Part shown: one piece after another, positions 11,361-34,645 of the stretch
How the letters are laid out: each line of letters starts with the position of its first letter
How positions within the stretch are numbered: the stretch's first letter is position 1
Assembly (NCBI GenBank): GCA_947643405.1
Contig: CANRVY010000014.1
Location: forward strand, 1-39,568
Source: an uncultured Mycoplasmatota bacterium
GTDB lineage: Bacteria > Bacillota_I > Bacilli_A > RF39 > UBA660
Direction of reading: 5' to 3'
DNA: 39,568 nt
The notes under the pieces: generated by a model
Told to the model about the DNA's origin: nothing
The model's database searches: none
Seen by the model: the letters and a program-made list of their open reading frames with translations, nothing else
Program-made: the position numbers and the translations under genes

Positions 11361-11444
11361 AAAAAATGACGCACACACTCAGAGGTTTTTAAGGCTGCTA
11401 TCTTCCAATTCTGACCTGGTTCAAACATGAATGTTGCGTCATAT
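11361..11444 (-). ncRNA. ffs: Signal recognition particle RNA, small bacterial type
   Basis: The minus strand carries the SRP RNA core: CCAGGTCAG, a GGAA tetraloop, then GATAGCAGCC, equivalent to the universal apical loop that binds Ffh. The outer ends pair (TGACGCAAC with GTGTGCGTCA), giving one rod-like hairpin of about 80 nt without an Alu domain. Seven T residues follow at 11360-11366 and act as the terminator. The bases next to the tetraloop differ from the common form (TT and GA replacing CC and GG) in a way that can still pair. The 5' end is approximate. Confidence 0.93.
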
Positions 11445-11446
11445 AT

Positions 11447-11475
11447 AGGATATATCATTTAATGATTATTTGCAA
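11447..11475 (-). promoter_or_regulatory. Promoter of the SRP RNA
   Basis: On the minus strand TTGCAA (11470-11475) and TATCCT (11447-11452) are separated by 17 bases and end a few bases before the SRP RNA 5' stem. Fair but not consensus hexamers. Confidence 0.5.
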
Positions 11476-11485
11476 ACAATTTTAA

Positions 11486-11501
11486 TGTTCCACGTGAAAC
11501 A
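11486..11501 (+). promoter_or_regulatory. parS site 1
   Basis: The 16-mer TGTTCCACGTGAAACA matches the bacillar parS consensus (TGTTNCACGTGAAACA) exactly. It is the ParB loading site for chromosome segregation. It lies about 9 kb from dnaA in the gap between gyrA and the SRP RNA gene. Confidence 0.93.
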
Positions 11502-11520
11502 TTTTATTTTTCCACTTCGA

Positions 11521-11536
11521 TGTTTCACGTGGAACA
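11521..11536 (-). promoter_or_regulatory. parS site 2
   Basis: TGTTTCACGTGGAACA is the exact reverse complement of parS site 1, so it is a perfect match in the opposite orientation, 19 bases further on. Confidence 0.93.
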
Positions 11537-11565
11537 TTCTTTCTTATTCTCTTATCGACCCTATA

Positions 11566-11581
11566 TGTTTCACGTGGAACA
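11566..11581 (-). promoter_or_regulatory. parS site 3
   Basis: A second copy of TGTTTCACGTGGAACA in the same orientation as site 2, with 29 bases between them. It borders the gyrA terminator. Confidence 0.93.
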
Positions 11582-11584
11582 TAC

Positions 11585-11616
11585 AAAAACCAGAAGCACT
11601 TTTATGCTTCTGGTTT
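11585..11616 (-). terminator. Terminator of recF-gyrB-gyrA
   Basis: A perfect 12-base stem (AAACCAGAAGCA and its complement) with a six-base loop is followed on the minus strand by five T. The gyrA stop codon sits in the loop and the last codons of gyrA form one arm. Confidence 0.88.
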
Positions 11617-27530: not shown

Positions 27531-28221
27531 ATTTGAAAAAGAACTTGAATTACTGGGAATATTATTGTCAGAAACGCAGAAAACTCAATTAGAGACTTAT
27601 TATAAGTTATTAGCTGAATGGAATGAAAAAATGAATTTAACTGGAATTACAGAAAAAGAACAGGTATATTTAAAACATTTTTATGATAGTGCAACTTTGG
27701 TAAAAGTAATAGATTTAAAAGAAGAAAAAACTTTATGTGATATAGGAACAGGTGCAGGATTTCCAGGTCTGGTATTAAAAATTTTATTTCCGCATTTGGA
27801 AGTAACTTTGGTAGATGCATTAAATAAAAGAATTGTATTTTTAGAAAATGTGATAGAAACATTGAAATTAGAAAATATCAAAACAGTCCATGTAAGAGCA
27901 GAAGAGTATGCAAGAGAACATAGAGAAAAATTTGATGTGGTTACATCTAGAGCTGTAGCTGCTCTTCCAATGTTATTAGAATACTCTGTTCCGCTAGTGA
28001 AAATAGGAAAATATTTTATACCAATGAAAGGCGATATTGCCCAGGAAATAAAGGCTTCAGAGCATTCTATTAAACTTTTGAATGTCAATTTAGAGTGTCA
28101 AGAAAAATTTTCACTTCCACTCGAAAATAGTACTAGAACAATATTAAAATTTCGAAAAGAGAAAAGTTCACATGTAAAGTATCCAAGAAAATTTAGTGAG
28201 ATGAAGAAGAATCCATTGTAA
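27517..28221 (+). CDS. rsmG: 16S rRNA (guanine-527-N7)-methyltransferase RsmG
   Basis: RsmG (GidB) methylates G527 of 16S rRNA. The 234-residue product has LTGITEKEQVYLKHFYDS, the SAM motif CDIGTGAGFPGLVLKI (about 69-84) and VTSRAVAALPMLLEYS. AAAGGAG precedes the ATG within the end of mnmG. A terminator follows, so it is the last gene of its unit. Confidence 0.96.
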   Translation: MTEDRFEKELELLGILLSETQKTQLETYYKLLAEWNEKMNLTGITEKEQVYLKHFYDSATLVKVIDLKEEKTLCDIGTGAGFPGLVLKILFPHLEVTLVDALNKRIVFLENVIETLKLENIKTVHVRAEEYAREHREKFDVVTSRAVAALPMLLEYSVPLVKIGKYFIPMKGDIAQEIKASEHSIKLLNVNLECQEKFSLPLENSTRTILKFRKEKSSHVKYPRKFSEMKKNPL

Positions 28222-28263: not shown

Positions 28264-28294
28264 TTTGGGAAATGATATTGAAATATTTCCCAAA
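28264..28294. promoter_or_regulatory. Everted ATTTCCCAA pair in the noc promoter (candidate operator)
   Basis: TTTGGGAAAT, an 11-base spacer and ATTTCCCAAA form an inverted repeat that overlaps the -35 and spacer of the noc promoter. The half-site resembles one half of the Noc binding site, but the halves face the opposite way. Binding by Noc itself would give autoregulation; this is inference. Confidence 0.55.
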
Positions 28295-28306
28295 GTATAG
28301 TATTAT
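28278..28306 (+). promoter_or_regulatory. Promoter of the noc-family gene
   Basis: TTGAAA and TATTAT with a 17-base spacer, about 30 bases before the ATG. The spacer contains one ATTTCCC element. Confidence 0.6.
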
Positions 28307-28334
28307 AGTATATAGAATAAAAAGGAGGATGACT

Positions 28335-29843
28335 ATGGATAATAGAAAAATTGTCGAGCTAGACTTAAATGATATATTGCCAAATAGATTTCAGCCAAGA
28401 ATTAAGTTTAATGAAGATTCTATTACAGAACTAGCTGAGTCAATTAAAGAACATGGTGTCATTCAACCTATTGTTGTAAGACCTTTAGGGGATAGATATG
28501 AAATTATAGCTGGAGAAAGACGTTATAAAGCAAGCGTATTAGCTGGAAAAGAAACAATTCCAGCAATTGTAACTGAGTTAAATGATAAAGATAGTGCAGA
28601 AGTAGCACTTATAGAAAATGTACAACGTCAAGATTTAACTCCAATAGAGGAAGCAATTTCATATAATAAAATTCTTGATATGGGATATTTAACACAGGAA
28701 GAATTGGCACTCAAATTAGGAAAAACACAATCAACTATTGCAAATAAACTAAGATTATTAAAACTTGATGATGAAGTACAAGAAGCATTATTAGAATCTA
28801 AAATCTCAGAGAGACATGCAAGGTCTTTATTAAAGTTAACGGATAAAAATAAACAAAAACAAATGTTAGCAAAAATAATTAATGAAAGATTAACTGTACG
28901 AAAAACAGATGAGGAGATAAGTAAAATGATGAATGAAAATGATAATAAGAATATAGAAATAATTGATTTTGGAAATACAAATAATACAACAACTCCAATT
29001 AATCAAGGAATAAATTATAACATTCCAACAACACCAATTGTAGAGGAGCCGGTTATTCCACAAGCTCCAGTGCAAGAAACACCAGTTGTAAATCCTGGAT
29101 TTATGAATGTAGAACAAATAGAACAAACAGCACAGGATATTAATGTGGCACCACCAGTAGCAAATATGGATGCATTGTTAACTCCAGCTGATATGTTGAA
29201 TACGGTTCCAACTCCACAAACAAATGTTAATCCAGTAAATCCATTTGGAGTATCAATGGAAACAAATGATGCAGATGATAGTTCAGCAGAAGCAATATTG
29301 AAACCTGGAAAGTTTTTTAACTTGTCAGATTTAGAAAACCCTGTTCTAGAGCAACCACAACCAGTACAAGAAGCTCCAGTAGAACAGCCAAATCCAATTT
29401 TGACAAATCCAACAGTGAATGTTCAACCAACTGTGGAAGTAGCTCCTGCCAGTCCAATCGTTGAACAACCTGTAATAGGGCAACCAACAGAGGTAGCAAA
29501 TAACTTTGTAACAAATTTTGATAATACTATGACTGAAAAACCAACTCCAATTATTCCTGCTAATCCAGAGCCACTTATTCAAACTCCAATAATGGAGCCA
29601 ATGAGTAATCAAACAATTGCGGTTCCTAATTATAATGAATTAGAATCAACAATGTATGGGGCGGTAAGTCCAATAACTCCATCAGTTTCTGAAATACCAG
29701 TTGGACAGAATAATATGAAGCAAGTAATTGATATTATTAGAGAGTGTTCTTCTAAAATAGAAGCCTTGGGATTTGAGATAGAAACTGAAGAATATGATTT
29801 TGAAGACATGTATCAAGCAATCTTTAAGATAAATAAGAAATAG
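28335..29843 (+). CDS. noc: Noc/ParB-family nucleoid protein with long disordered insertion
   Basis: The 502-residue product has a ParB-type N-terminal CTPase domain (GERRYKAS at 60-67; ENVQRQDLTPIEEA at 94-107), a helix-turn-helix domain (about 118-200, with GKTQSTIANKLRLLKL) and a C-terminal dimerisation domain (461-502, ending EDMYQAIFKINKK). The reading helices and C-terminus resemble Noc more than Spo0J/ParB, and the place after rsmG is that of noc in Bacillus. Between 205 and 455 lies a Pro/Gln/Asn/Val-rich segment with no counterpart in the roughly 280-residue B. subtilis proteins. The membrane-binding N-terminal helix of Noc is absent. GGAGG lies six bases before the chosen ATG. No parA gene follows. 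Confidence 0.9.
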   Translation: MDNRKIVELDLNDILPNRFQPRIKFNEDSITELAESIKEHGVIQPIVVRPLGDRYEIIAGERRYKASVLAGKETIPAIVTELNDKDSAEVALIENVQRQDLTPIEEAISYNKILDMGYLTQEELALKLGKTQSTIANKLRLLKLDDEVQEALLESKISERHARSLLKLTDKNKQKQMLAKIINERLTVRKTDEEISKMMNENDNKNIEIIDFGNTNNTTTPINQGINYNIPTTPIVEEPVIPQAPVQETPVVNPGFMNVEQIEQTAQDINVAPPVANMDALLTPADMLNTVPTPQTNVNPVNPFGVSMETNDADDSSAEAILKPGKFFNLSDLENPVLEQPQPVQEAPVEQPNPILTNPTVNVQPTVEVAPASPIVEQPVIGQPTEVANNFVTNFDNTMTEKPTPIIPANPEPLIQTPIMEPMSNQTIAVPNYNELESTMYGAVSPITPSVSEIPVGQNNMKQVIDIIRECSSKIEALGFEIETEEYDFEDMYQAIFKINKK

Positions 29844-29920: not shown

Positions 29921-32900
29921 ATGCTAACATATGAACAATTTATGAAGCTTGTTCCAAAAGAAACAGCAGCATTTGTATCAAAGGTATTACCTTATTTAGA
30001 TGGATATATGAGAGAAGATGTAAAGCTTCGATTTAAAGGTGATAATCAAGCTGGTCATAAAGATAGTAAAGCAAACTTTTTATTATTATATTGTCTTGCA
30101 GATTGGAAGGAATATAGTACTTTTTTAAAAAATTATGGCTTTGATATAGATAAATATAAAATAAATAGAGATTGGGTAGACTTAAAAGCAAACAGAGAAA
30201 TATTGTTTGAGAAGTTTAGTGGAATTTTTAATCTTTATGAAGATGAAACTTTATATACGAGTTTGACTCCATTAGATATTGTGAAAAGAGCATTTGAAAA
30301 ATATATTTCAAATTGTTCTATTTCAATTTTTGAATATTTATTTCCTAATATAGGATCTAATTCATTCTTAAAAGAATTAGAAAAAATGAGACAAGCTGAA
30401 AAGGTAGAAATAGAACATCAAACGGAGCAAGAAACTTATGGAAAACTTTCTATTTCAGTTATTTCATATTTAGAGACAGCTTCTAAAATAAGAACGCTAT
30501 TATATTCTGGTATCAAACAAAATAATGAATTGGTAAGATTAAATGATGAAGATATTGTTCCAATTTCATTATTATTTGCTTTATATTATTATAAAGATAC
30601 TCCATTAGCAGAAGAGGAAATAACGGAACAAAGTATTATTCAGTCAATGCTACAAGAAAAAGGGATAAATTTAGAAAAAATTTCAAATGCAATTGGGCAA
30701 AGTTTTTATGTCAATACAATAAGAGAAGCGAGAAAAAATGTAGATGCTATTAGATTATTATATTCAAAATATTATCATAGTGGATCAAATGAGAAAATAG
30801 AAGAAGCAAACATTACAGTGTCAAACATATTAAATAATTTATTTGATCGTAATTTTACAAATAGTTATGCAATAGAAAAAGTGTTTGCAAAATTAAACTG
30901 TTATGTAGGTGCCTTTTTACCAGTAGAAGAAAAAGTCGCAAAATTAAGAGATTCAGAAGAGCGAATTCATTCTTTGTCATATGTGAAAAATTTTTATGCA
31001 GAACTTTCAAAAGAATCTGGAGATTTTATTGAATTTACAACAAAGACTTATTTACTATTATTGGAAAAGATGAAAGAAAAAAATCATAATGCAGAAATAT
31101 TAGTAGATGAAGATGATGCTGATACATTAGCTTTATTTATTGCATCTTGTTATTATAAATTAGATGTTAGTGAATTCTTTGGCGATTATGGTATATCTTT
31201 AGAAAAAGTCTTTGAACTTTTAAATTTACAAGTTACCAAAGAGGAAATAGAAGCAATGAAGTTAAATCAAAAAGTTTTAGTTGATCGTTATAAGAGATTT
31301 GTATATGAAGGCGTAAATCGAAATAGATCAGCTAAGATAATACGTATTACAGATATTGCTCACAATCTTTGTAATAGAGAATTTAATCGTAGTATGATTA
31401 TGGAAAGTATTTTCTTTGAATTAACAAAGTCTACAGATTTACAGAGTGACTTTTTAGAACAATTAAGACTTCATTTAGAAAAAAAAGAACAAAATAGAAA
31501 GATGAGATTAACGCAACGATTATTTAAAGATATGCCAGTTAGTACTATGGAATATTTAGAAAATGCATCCATTATACATCAATTTCTTCTTGAGCACATA
31601 AAACAATATAATGAGATGGATATTCAAGTTTTATCTCTTTTGCTTTCTACCTTTGTATCTCAAAAATCAGATATTGCAGATTTTTTAAATTCTAAGAAAT
31701 TAACACTTAATAGTGTTTGTAGTTTTTTAAATATATCATCAAATAGCTTAACGAGAGGTTCTATTAATATTGATATTTTAGCGGAGCAATATGGAATGTT
31801 TATTTTTGGAGGTCACAATAAAGATTTAGAAAGAAAAGATTTAACGGTATTTAACATCATAAGAAATATTTTTTCAAAAGATGTTTATAATAGTGTTTTA
31901 ATTAGTAAATTACTGGGAAATTTTGGCTTATCATATGAAGATTTTGAAAATTTTAAAGAGAAATTTGAGACTTATTTAAAGGAAACAGAAGAAGCTAAAA
32001 AAATAGAAGAAGCAAAAGGAATATTAAATAGCTTTAGGGAAAATCCAAGACAATATATTATAAATGTTATACGCATTCATCAGCGATTAGTAAAAATTGC
32101 ATATCAAGATGAATCTGTAGCACGTTTAATTCCAAATATAACAGATGTAAGAGAGTTATCACTTTTATTAGGAATGTTTACAATCGAAAATGATGTTCAA
32201 CATTTTTTTGAAAAAAATAGAGTGACTCTTGAAAACATATGCGCATTAATTGGATTAGATAAGGATATTATAAAGGAACTAGAAGGAGAAGAGGTCAATT
32301 ATAAATTAATTTCTGATACTTATGAGCCTTGGATTCAATATGGAAGCTCAAATTATAATAGAACTGTATCAGATTTAATTTCTAGAGTTTTTGATAAAAC
32401 GATTGGAAAAGAAAGTTTAATCCTTGAAGAAATTGTATCATTTGTTGGTTCTAATTATGATATTTTAAAAGAAGAAGTGGAGTCTAAAAAGGATCATGAA
32501 TTATCTTTATCAATTGATGATAGAATTAAAGTATTATCAGAAGAAAGTGTAGACTCATTAGATTTAACTGATGTAAAAAGTATTCTCCACTTTGGGAATT
32601 CATTATCGATTCATTCAAAATATATTCATGACGAGTTACCAAGATTGATGATGAGTGATGCACATGATAAATCAGTAGAGACAATTAGTCATATTGTAGA
32701 TAAAATATATACTGAAGTTCCAGTAGAAAAGAAAAAAAGATCTTTGTTTGATCGTTTATTTGGTGTTGTAGTAGAAGATGAAGAACCTAAGTTGGTATTA
32801 AATCCAGATGCCATTCAAGAATTAAAAGATGCAATTGATTCTAATATAGAATCATTGTCAAAAGAATTATTAGGTTATGATGCTATTCGTAAATATATAG

Positions 32901-33547
32901 AAGCATACCGTAAGAAAAATCGCTCTCATCTTCTTGTTGCAATGTCAGAAACTGAAAAGGTAGAAGAAGAAGTTCAAAGTTTAAATCCAAAAAAAGAAGA
33001 AGATTATGCAGCATTTTTGTTAGCTACATCTAGATTACAGATTATGAGAGATAAAACAAATCGTTTTAGTACTTCTAATCATTTAATGAAACAAGAATTA
33101 TTGAAGGTAAACCAAGCAATTGTGAATCATTTTATTACAATAAATGCATTAGAGATGGCAAAAGATGATTTGCTTCCATTAATAGGTTCTGAATTAGCGC
33201 TTACACAAGGTAGAAATACTGAGAATAAGAGTTTAAATTTATCTGAAAATGTAATAGGATTATTTCAGTCTTTATTATCTAGAAATGTAGCAGGAGCAGT
33301 TGAAAATATGGAAAAGTTAAAAGGAGCGAACTTATCTGCTGATACTTTTGCCTTATTAAATAGGGATATTGAAGTTTATTTGCAAGGTCTCAATCAAGCT
33401 ACTCAATTAGAAGGAAGAGTAGAGCCATTAGATATCGATCAAGTTACAATGACTTCTGATTATACACCAAAATTAGTGTTAACAGGACAAGAAGATTCTA
33501 TTGATCAAAAAAATAAACAGATGATTTTGGAATATCCAAAAGAGTAA
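29921..33547 (+). CDS. Large cytoplasmic repeat protein of unknown function
   Basis: I do not recognise this 1208-residue protein. It has no signal peptide or membrane segment and reads as almost wholly helical. Residues about 1-860 form roughly five units of about 170 residues. Recurring pieces are a helix like ISVISYLETASKIRTLL (178-194), PVSTMEYLENASIIHQFL (539-556) and PRQYIINVIRIHQRLVKI (709-726); a hydrophobic ISLLFALYYY / LALFIASCYY / LSLLLSTF / LSLLLGMF helix; a G/T-I/L-LEKI element (INLEKISNAIG, ISLEKVFELLN, VTLENICALIG); and T-V-S-x-I-L-x-x-L-F-D. The C-terminal part (about 955-1180) recalls the helical TelA family, a weak impression only. It has its own promoter and terminator next to noc. 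Confidence 0.85.
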   Translation: MLTYEQFMKLVPKETAAFVSKVLPYLDGYMREDVKLRFKGDNQAGHKDSKANFLLLYCLADWKEYSTFLKNYGFDIDKYKINRDWVDLKANREILFEKFSGIFNLYEDETLYTSLTPLDIVKRAFEKYISNCSISIFEYLFPNIGSNSFLKELEKMRQAEKVEIEHQTEQETYGKLSISVISYLETASKIRTLLYSGIKQNNELVRLNDEDIVPISLLFALYYYKDTPLAEEEITEQSIIQSMLQEKGINLEKISNAIGQSFYVNTIREARKNVDAIRLLYSKYYHSGSNEKIEEANITVSNILNNLFDRNFTNSYAIEKVFAKLNCYVGAFLPVEEKVAKLRDSEERIHSLSYVKNFYAELSKESGDFIEFTTKTYLLLLEKMKEKNHNAEILVDEDDADTLALFIASCYYKLDVSEFFGDYGISLEKVFELLNLQVTKEEIEAMKLNQKVLVDRYKRFVYEGVNRNRSAKIIRITDIAHNLCNREFNRSMIMESIFFELTKSTDLQSDFLEQLRLHLEKKEQNRKMRLTQRLFKDMPVSTMEYLENASIIHQFLLEHIKQYNEMDIQVLSLLLSTFVSQKSDIADFLNSKKLTLNSVCSFLNISSNSLTRGSINIDILAEQYGMFIFGGHNKDLERKDLTVFNIIRNIFSKDVYNSVLISKLLGNFGLSYEDFENFKEKFETYLKETEEAKKIEEAKGILNSFRENPRQYIINVIRIHQRLVKIAYQDESVARLIPNITDVRELSLLLGMFTIENDVQHFFEKNRVTLENICALIGLDKDIIKELEGEEVNYKLISDTYEPWIQYGSSNYNRTVSDLISRVFDKTIGKESLILEEIVSFVGSNYDILKEEVESKKDHELSLSIDDRIKVLSEESVDSLDLTDVKSILHFGNSLSIHSKYIHDELPRLMMSDAHDKSVETISHIVDKIYTEVPVEKKKRSLFDRLFGVVVEDEEPKLVLNPDAIQELKDAIDSNIESLSKELLGYDAIRKYIEAYRKKNRSHLLVAMSETEKVEEEVQSLNPKKEEDYAAFLLATSRLQIMRDKTNRFSTSNHLMKQELLKVNQAIVNHFITINALEMAKDDLLPLIGSELALTQGRNTENKSLNLSENVIGLFQSLLSRNVAGAVENMEKLKGANLSADTFALLNRDIEVYLQGLNQATQLEGRVEPLDIDQVTMTSDYTPKLVLTGQEDSIDQKNKQMILEYPKE

Positions 33548-33597: not shown

Positions 33598-34645
33598 ATG
33601 AAAAAAGAATATCAAGTAGTTATTATAGGTGCAGGACCTTCTGGGTTATCCGCTGCTCTTCATTTAAAAAAATATGGAGTAAAAAATATTTTAGTAATTG
33701 AAAAAGATATATTTCCAAGATATAAGTGTTGTGCTGGCTATATTACAACTAAAACAAGAAAGTTTTATGAAAGTTTAGGGCTCAAATTGGAGAATTGTCA
33801 CTATACATTAATAAAAGATTTTCATATTTTTTATGAGTATAAAAAGAGACAGACCATTGATAATAAATTTCTGTATACAAATAGAAAGATAGATCGAGTA
33901 GAATTGGATTATGAATTTTATAAATTAGCAAGAGAAAAGAATATAGAAATTTTAGAAGGAATAAAAATAAGGTCACACAATATAGAAAAATCAGAGCTTT
34001 ATTTATCAAATTCTGAAATAATTGCTTATCAAAATTTAATTTTTGCAGATGGGACTTTAGGATATGGTAGTAGATATCAAAAAAATAAAAAACGAAATAT
34101 TGCTCTTCAGCTCACATTTCCAAATGATCATTTAGATGAAATACAAATTCATTTTGGAATTACGAGAAAGGGATATGGGTGGGTAAGTAGTTATTAGGGG
34201 ATAACAAATGTAGGACTTACAGATGTGTATGATAGTCACAATAACTATAGAAAAATATTTTCAGAGTTCTTAAAGGAGTTAAACTTTGATATAAATTTGG
34301 ACAATTTGAAAGGAGCATTTACTCCAATTGGAATTAGGAAGCCAATTATTTATAATAATATTTTTTATGTTGGAGGTGCTGTAGAGCTTGTGATCCGCTT
34401 ACGTTGTCTGGTTTACGATATGGTTTAATGACAGGAGAAAAATGTGCTCTATTAATTGCAACAAAAATAAAAATGTTTATAAAAATTGTATTAGATGTTT
34501 AAAATGTAAGTTTCAATTTATGAAACTATTACAAAAAATATTTTATGTAAAGTGTGTTTTATTTTTAGTTTTTAATATAGGCTGTCGTTATTTTCATAGT
34601 CTTATAAGCTTCGCTTTTAATAATTTCTTTATTAATAAAAAGTAA
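33598..34645 (+). pseudogene. Broken FAD-dependent reductase (geranylgeranyl reductase family)
   Basis: The first 199 codons encode the start of a flavoprotein of the geranylgeranyl reductase family: dinucleotide-binding GAGPSGLSAALHLKK (11-25), FPRYKCCAGYITTK and RVELDYEFYKLA. After GYGWVSSY comes an in-frame TAG (34195). The same frame then continues with GITNVGLTDVYDSHNNYRKI up to VGGAVE. The reading then shifts to another frame, giving CDPLTLSGLRYGLMTGEKC, and later shifts again so that a Phe-rich C-terminal part (KLLQKIFYVKC...) ends at 34645. One nonsense codon and at least two frameshifts make it a pseudogene unless they are sequencing errors. Such enzymes reduce isoprenoid double bonds; the original substrate is unknown. 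Confidence 0.85.

Follow-up and report, generated by a model that had tools for sequence, protein, structure and literature searches.

An order-wide RF39 variant of the Noc protein carries a motif-bearing disordered linker and is probably an origin tether

Members of RF39, an order of uncultured gut bacteria, possess a variant of the Noc protein in which a long linker with conserved short motifs separates the DNA-binding core from the dimerisation domain, and this variant probably acts as an origin tether and not as a guard of the entire chromosome. The analysis centres on a stretch of 39,568 bp from an uncultured Mycoplasmatota bacterium (the window) and covers relatives from the same genus, family, order and class. 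Homology to the Noc clamp, disorder of the linker, loss of the N-terminal helix, conservation and selection of the linker motifs, and confinement of NBS to the origin region within the order were established by computation.

The window encodes a Noc-type CTPase clamp

The noc orthologue is encoded at 28335..29843 on the forward strand. The ATG at 28335 is the better start, as it is spaced six bases downstream of an AGGAGG, and leads to a protein of 502 aa; the alternative ATG at 28329 would add two residues. The core (residues 1-199, 28335..28931, +) consists of the CTPase (ParB_N) and HTH_ParB domains, which Pfam assigns to residues 7-99 and 101-201, respectively, when numbered from the ATG at 28329. 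The CTPase motifs GERRxxA and EN(V/I/L)QR are present together with HTH_ParB. The dimerisation domain (residues 459-502, 29709..29840, +) is found at the C-terminus and has the arrangement helix-strand-strand. AlphaFold2 models based on 72 orthologues reach a pLDDT of 80-97 for the core and of 90+ for residues 461-500.

By sequence as well as by fold, the top PDB matches are to Noc (7NG0/7NFU), with Noc structures scoring 218 bits versus 180 bits for Spo0J. The DNA-specificity residues were compared with those described for NBS recognition by Noc (PMC7383237). At the positions corresponding to Q173, K179, K184 and R201, the window protein has the Noc-type combination Q-K-K-R; across the order, Q, K and R are retained in nearly all readable members, and position 184 is usually N. 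The gene order mnmE-mnmG-rsmG-noc is present at the window locus. Because of the PDB ranking by sequence and fold, the QKKR residues and this synteny, the protein is considered a Noc orthologue, and the Noc-type CTPase clamp claimed in the original prediction is supported.

With Spo0J/ParB (TIGR00180), the protein shares the ParB_N and HTH_ParB folds and origin-proximal sites. However, its specificity residues are QKKR and not of the parS type, it has no LGRGL-type N-terminus, and parA is not adjacent; a second, ordinary ParB adjoins parA elsewhere in the genome. With the Noc proteins of B. subtilis and Geobacillus (TIGR04285; PDB 7OL9, 7NFU, 7NG0), it shares the CTPase and HTH core, the NBS specificity residues, the small C-terminal domain and a gene position after rsmG, as in other Firmicutes. 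RF39 Noc differs from these proteins in lacking the N-terminal helix, in having a motif-bearing disordered linker of 93-547 aa, and in that the NBS of the order are restricted to the oriC region instead of being spread over the chromosome. It also stays below the curated TIGR04285 cut-off of 315 bits, which refers to the full-length score and is passed by none of the 288 order members. The window protein falls short by a small margin, with 293.4 bits over residues 7-207, the position at which the match stops.

In the genus, noc is directly followed by a gene for a 1208-residue protein of unassigned family (29921-33547), with only a sub-threshold match to DUF7687. This neighbour was rejected as a dedicated Noc partner, being sporadic and more distant elsewhere. 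A FAD-binding oxidoreductase is represented at 33598-34197 by its N-terminal half (199 residues) and is possibly truncated.

A long disordered linker of variable length and composition

An insertion of about 250 residues between the DNA-binding and dimerisation domains had been predicted at 28947-29700, which corresponds to residues 205-456 when counted from the ATG at 28335. This was confirmed, and the insertion spans residues 200-458 (259 aa; 28932..29708, +). In the window protein it contains 15% Pro, 12% Asn, 7% Gln, 12% acidic and 2% basic residues, and is devoid of Cys and Trp. The predicted disorder holds for most of the linker, with an AlphaFold2 pLDDT of 36-50 (72 orthologues) and a dN/dS of 0.30-0.60 outside the motifs, but the linker is not featureless throughout, since conserved motifs lie within it. 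An exception to the low pLDDT are residues 251-285 (63-74), with a helix at 259-265. A second orthologue, whose linker is shorter, gave the same pattern.

The long linker is an order-wide property of RF39, being present in every complete orthologue checked and absent from the Noc proteins of the other class families sampled. Assignment of the order to RF39 of GTDB relies on relatives that bear the names Candidatus Faecisoma and Candidatus Coprosoma (PMC8035907). It measures 93-472 aa in 34 of 34 checked genomes of the order and 102-547 aa in 105 complete order sequences, the two ranges resulting from a slightly different delimitation. The parAB-linked ParB proteins of the same genomes (mostly 291-306 aa) have no long linker. 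The same is true for the strong Noc/ParB matches from other families of the class, which are open frames of 254-306 aa; one such frame has 370 aa, owing to a long 5′ extension.

A comparison among orthologues had been proposed along with the original prediction. Neither a conserved length nor a conserved Pro/Gln/Asn composition was found among order members: length varies from 93 to 547 aa and composition drifts, with 5-17% Pro and 10-27% acidic residues. What is kept instead are short ordered motifs. In G035 (L048/L115) and G028 (L055), linkers are enlarged by near-perfect tandem protein repeats, e.g. of QPEPFNPFSAPVQNEMPQMDQ-like units, and such repeats are a likely route for changes in linker length.

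Conserved motifs within the linker are under purifying selection

An unsupervised EM search retrieved four motifs with log-likelihoods of 275, 214, 186 and 172, while the best of eight shuffled sets, which served as control, reached at most 152. Motif M1 (YNIPTTPI, residues 228-235, 29016..29039, +; consensus (Y/F)NIPxxPI) occurs in 27 of 64 non-redundant linkers, compared to 4.5 after shuffling. Motif M2 (VNPGFMNVEQIEQTAQDI, residues 252-269, 29088..29141, +; consensus NPGFxDIxKIExxAxDI...LL) is found in 43 of the 64 (0.5 after shuffling). It is predicted to form a conditional helix; the pLDDT is 63-74 for the window protein, and the second orthologue reaches 61-69. Motif M2b (ANMDALL, residues 276-282, 29160..29180, +) is based on the EM search and the alignment. 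Motif M3 (GKFFNLSDLE, residues 325-334, 29307..29336, +), a candidate for membrane or partner binding, was detected in 46 of the 64 linkers versus 1.6 after shuffling. Its consensus is (G/N)(K/R)FF(N/S/T)-hydrophobic-acidic, also seen as a G-K-F-F-N-hydrophobic-hydrophobic-acidic run. M2 is located upstream of M3 in 32 of 35 linkers.

The 64 linkers share ancestry, and the shuffles gauge composition, not independence; selection is the stronger test of motif conservation. By a simple counting method applied to these short motifs, the within-genus dN/dS is 0.02-0.07 for M3, 0.06-0.21 for M2 and 0.05-0.32 for M1, compared to 0.30-0.60 for the remaining linker and 0.02-0.07 for the CTPase core. 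The linker motifs are under strong purifying selection, with M3 being constrained like the CTPase core.

A combined M2-M3 profile matched in 23 of the 38 genomes of the family, once per genome, whereas matches were absent from 258 other genomes of the class. Wherever coordinates are comparable, the matches sit in the Noc frame, and no other protein of the window's genome was found to contain the M2-M3 segment.

M1 was considered as a mimic of the FtsZ tail, but this was rejected: FtsZ of the same genome ends with DDTIIPAFLRKRGF and only Ile-Pro is in common. Residues 402-442 (29538-29660; KPTPIIPANPEPL...VPNYNELESTMYG) appear well conserved within the genus and are perhaps a further genus-level motif.

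M3 is a candidate substitute for the missing N-terminal helix

RF39 Noc lacks the N-terminal amphipathic membrane helix, as only 8-25 residues precede PNRFQPR, and these do not show a consistent hydrophobic cluster. The original prediction had noted this absence, which was borne out, and had considered an alternative tether plausible. The latter gains support from M3, which looks tether-like and is constrained as strongly as the CTPase core. M3 resembles FSRFFG, the core of the Noc anchor, and also the SepF N-terminus of the same genome (MAFSLKKWFNDEEPD). SepF is a membrane-anchored FtsZ tether and has, like M3, a short basic-aromatic-acidic motif; it differs in that the anchor is N-terminal and the protein fold unrelated.

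The function of B. subtilis Noc depends on 10 residues at its N-terminus, for which an unrelated amphipathic helix can substitute, and an N-terminal helix was predicted in all Noc homologues examined (PMC4331003). CTP has been proposed to switch the exposure of this 10-residue anchor helix (PMC8429893). The helical moment of M3 in the window protein (GKFFNLSDLENP) is 0.13, with 0.20 for the best 11-residue window, while the B. subtilis anchor has values of 0.36 and 0.50. Over the order, M3 is at the 7th percentile of its own linker, versus the 28th expected by chance. The helical moment thus provides modest support for M3 as a membrane helix, and weak support for the window's own M3. In the AlphaFold2 models of two orthologues, M3 is disordered, with a pLDDT below 50.

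Helix loss need not mean replacement, because Noc proteins with neither an N-terminal helix nor a linker exist in other families of the class, and about one in four of the members sampled has no clear M3. M3 is likely to be a relocated membrane or partner tether that replaces the N-terminal helix.

Canonical NBS of the order cluster near oriC, in many relatives together with parS

Canonical NBS in RF39 are restricted to the surroundings of oriC, and in many relatives they are interleaved with parS. With TATTTCCCGGGAAATA as search pattern (perfect or with one mismatch), NBS were found in 25 of the 32 order genomes tested, compared to a control total of a single match. There are 1-8 sites per genome, with 23 in one case. 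The noc contig holds 22 of the 39 NBS clusters, where 2.4 are expected, and 21 are within 30 kb. One closed chromosome of the order (1,256,952 bp) has four NBS and four parS, every one of which is located at 1,031,226-1,037,658, i.e. within 6.4 kb, and this array is about 8-15 kb from dnaA and from the GC-skew minimum. A chromosome-wide spread was not seen in the order genomes, the sites being clustered near oriC, whereas NBS are widely spread in B. subtilis except for the terminus region (PMC7383237).

Tandem arrays beside oriC, made up of parS alternating with NBS at a short and constant distance, occur in L170, L171, L174, L175, L177, L179 and L181-L184. Eight parS-NBS pairs, 44-46 bp apart, are found in L170, and the array of L171 has a 79-bp repeat. 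The exact composite parS-NBS pattern was detected in 49 of 288 order genomes, which represent 30 of 102 genera, while the reversed control did not give any match. Since the NBS are confined to the surroundings of oriC and mixed with parS, the role of Noc is likely to be altered. In S. aureus, too, Noc is connected with initiation and with the origin half of its chromosome, but there it binds 41 loci across that half and not a cluster adjacent to oriC (PMC5540599). Neither motif-bearing Noc linkers nor composite parS-NBS arrays were found described in the open literature searched; this is weak evidence for novelty, as most subscription journals are outside that scope.

The genus of the window does not have canonical NBS, and in the window's own genome the 14-bp site was not found with up to one mismatch. 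For this reason, the argument based on NBS covers the order and reaches the window's genome by extension only. The window contains dnaA, dnaN, gyrB and gyrA. Three perfect parS sites (11486..11581) are located between gyrA and a deaminase gene, the place (11377-11601 in the window) at which relatives have their interleaved parS and NBS arrays. The NBS-like sequence TATTGCCCAGGAAATA (28035..28050, +) lies within rsmG, 300 bp upstream of noc, and is the sole genome site with at most two mismatches.

The predicted noc promoter TTGAAA-N17-TATTAT (28278..28306, +) carries the NBS half-site element TATTTCCCAAA (28284-28294) exactly between its -35 and -10 hexamers, and GGGAAAT is found upstream of it (28267-28273, +). 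There are only 3 copies of TATTTCCCAAA in the 1.55-Mb genome. At the majority of RF39 loci, at least one such half-site is located in or beside a predicted noc promoter (28264-28306 in the window). The half-site within the promoter suggests that Noc may be autoregulated.

Possible functions of the linker

It had been proposed that the linker increases the reach of the clamp. Spacer length alone is insufficient as an explanation, because short motifs are conserved in fixed order. A plain flexible spacer, which extends the reach of the clamp or aids condensation and in which the motifs are incidental, would agree with the disorder in the AlphaFold2 models, the wide variation in length and the tandem repeats of some members. 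Maintenance of motif order and a constraint equal to that of the catalytic core are unexpected for a pure spacer, and we consider this explanation very doubtful. That the region is a sequence artefact or is decaying might be thought from its low-complexity composition, but this is refuted, with practically no probability left: the frame is open in more than 100 genomes, dN/dS is below 1 throughout, and in the large majority the C-terminal domain is in frame.

It is quite possible that the motifs dock protein partners (e.g. the divisome, ParA/SMC or replication proteins) and not the membrane, Noc being an origin hub or a regulator of replication. The strongly conserved M2 with its predicted conditional helix, the weak amphipathicity of the window M3 and the confinement of sites to the origin all fit such docking, as does the control of replication initiation by S. 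aureus Noc (PMC5540599). It is less easily reconciled with the likeness of M3 to known membrane anchors, and the M2-M3 segment is matched by no other protein of the genome. Alternatively, M2 or M3 could fold back on the CTPase domain and control the clamp, like the anchor helix in the apo-Noc of Geobacillus, which is autoinhibitory in the crystal structure (PMC8429893). The raised AlphaFold2 confidence of M2 would be in line with this, but the pLDDT of M3 is below 50 in both models, and we regard fold-back as rather unlikely.

We give about even chances to the reading that RF39 Noc is a clamp with an acidic, disordered, motif-presenting linker which ties the region around the origin to the membrane or else to a partner. 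For such a tether we infer the following steps. The linker would join the CTP-dependent clamp (1-199) to the dimerisation domain (459-502) and display short binding motifs. The clamp would load at Noc sites near oriC and then slide outwards, with the linker reaching out from it. M3 (basic-Phe-Phe-polar-hydrophobic-acidic) may insert weakly into the membrane, or into a membrane-bound partner, in place of the lost N-terminal amphipathic helix, while M2 may become helical upon binding a putative partner. Many loaded clamps could then jointly hold the origin region at the membrane.

More tentatively, ParB and Noc of RF39 might be two CTP-fuelled clamps that are co-loaded from a composite parS/NBS centromere beside oriC, with the Noc linker motifs, relocated from the N-terminus, as membrane tether. 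If this is true, a two-clamp, membrane-anchored partition complex replaces nucleoid-wide occlusion. Noc has been portrayed as invariably bearing an N-terminal membrane helix and as acting from sites distributed over the chromosome; RF39 Noc would illustrate, for a whole order, that changes in tether and sites alone can rewire a ParB-type clamp. This bears on the question whether Noc is fundamentally an origin-membrane tether.
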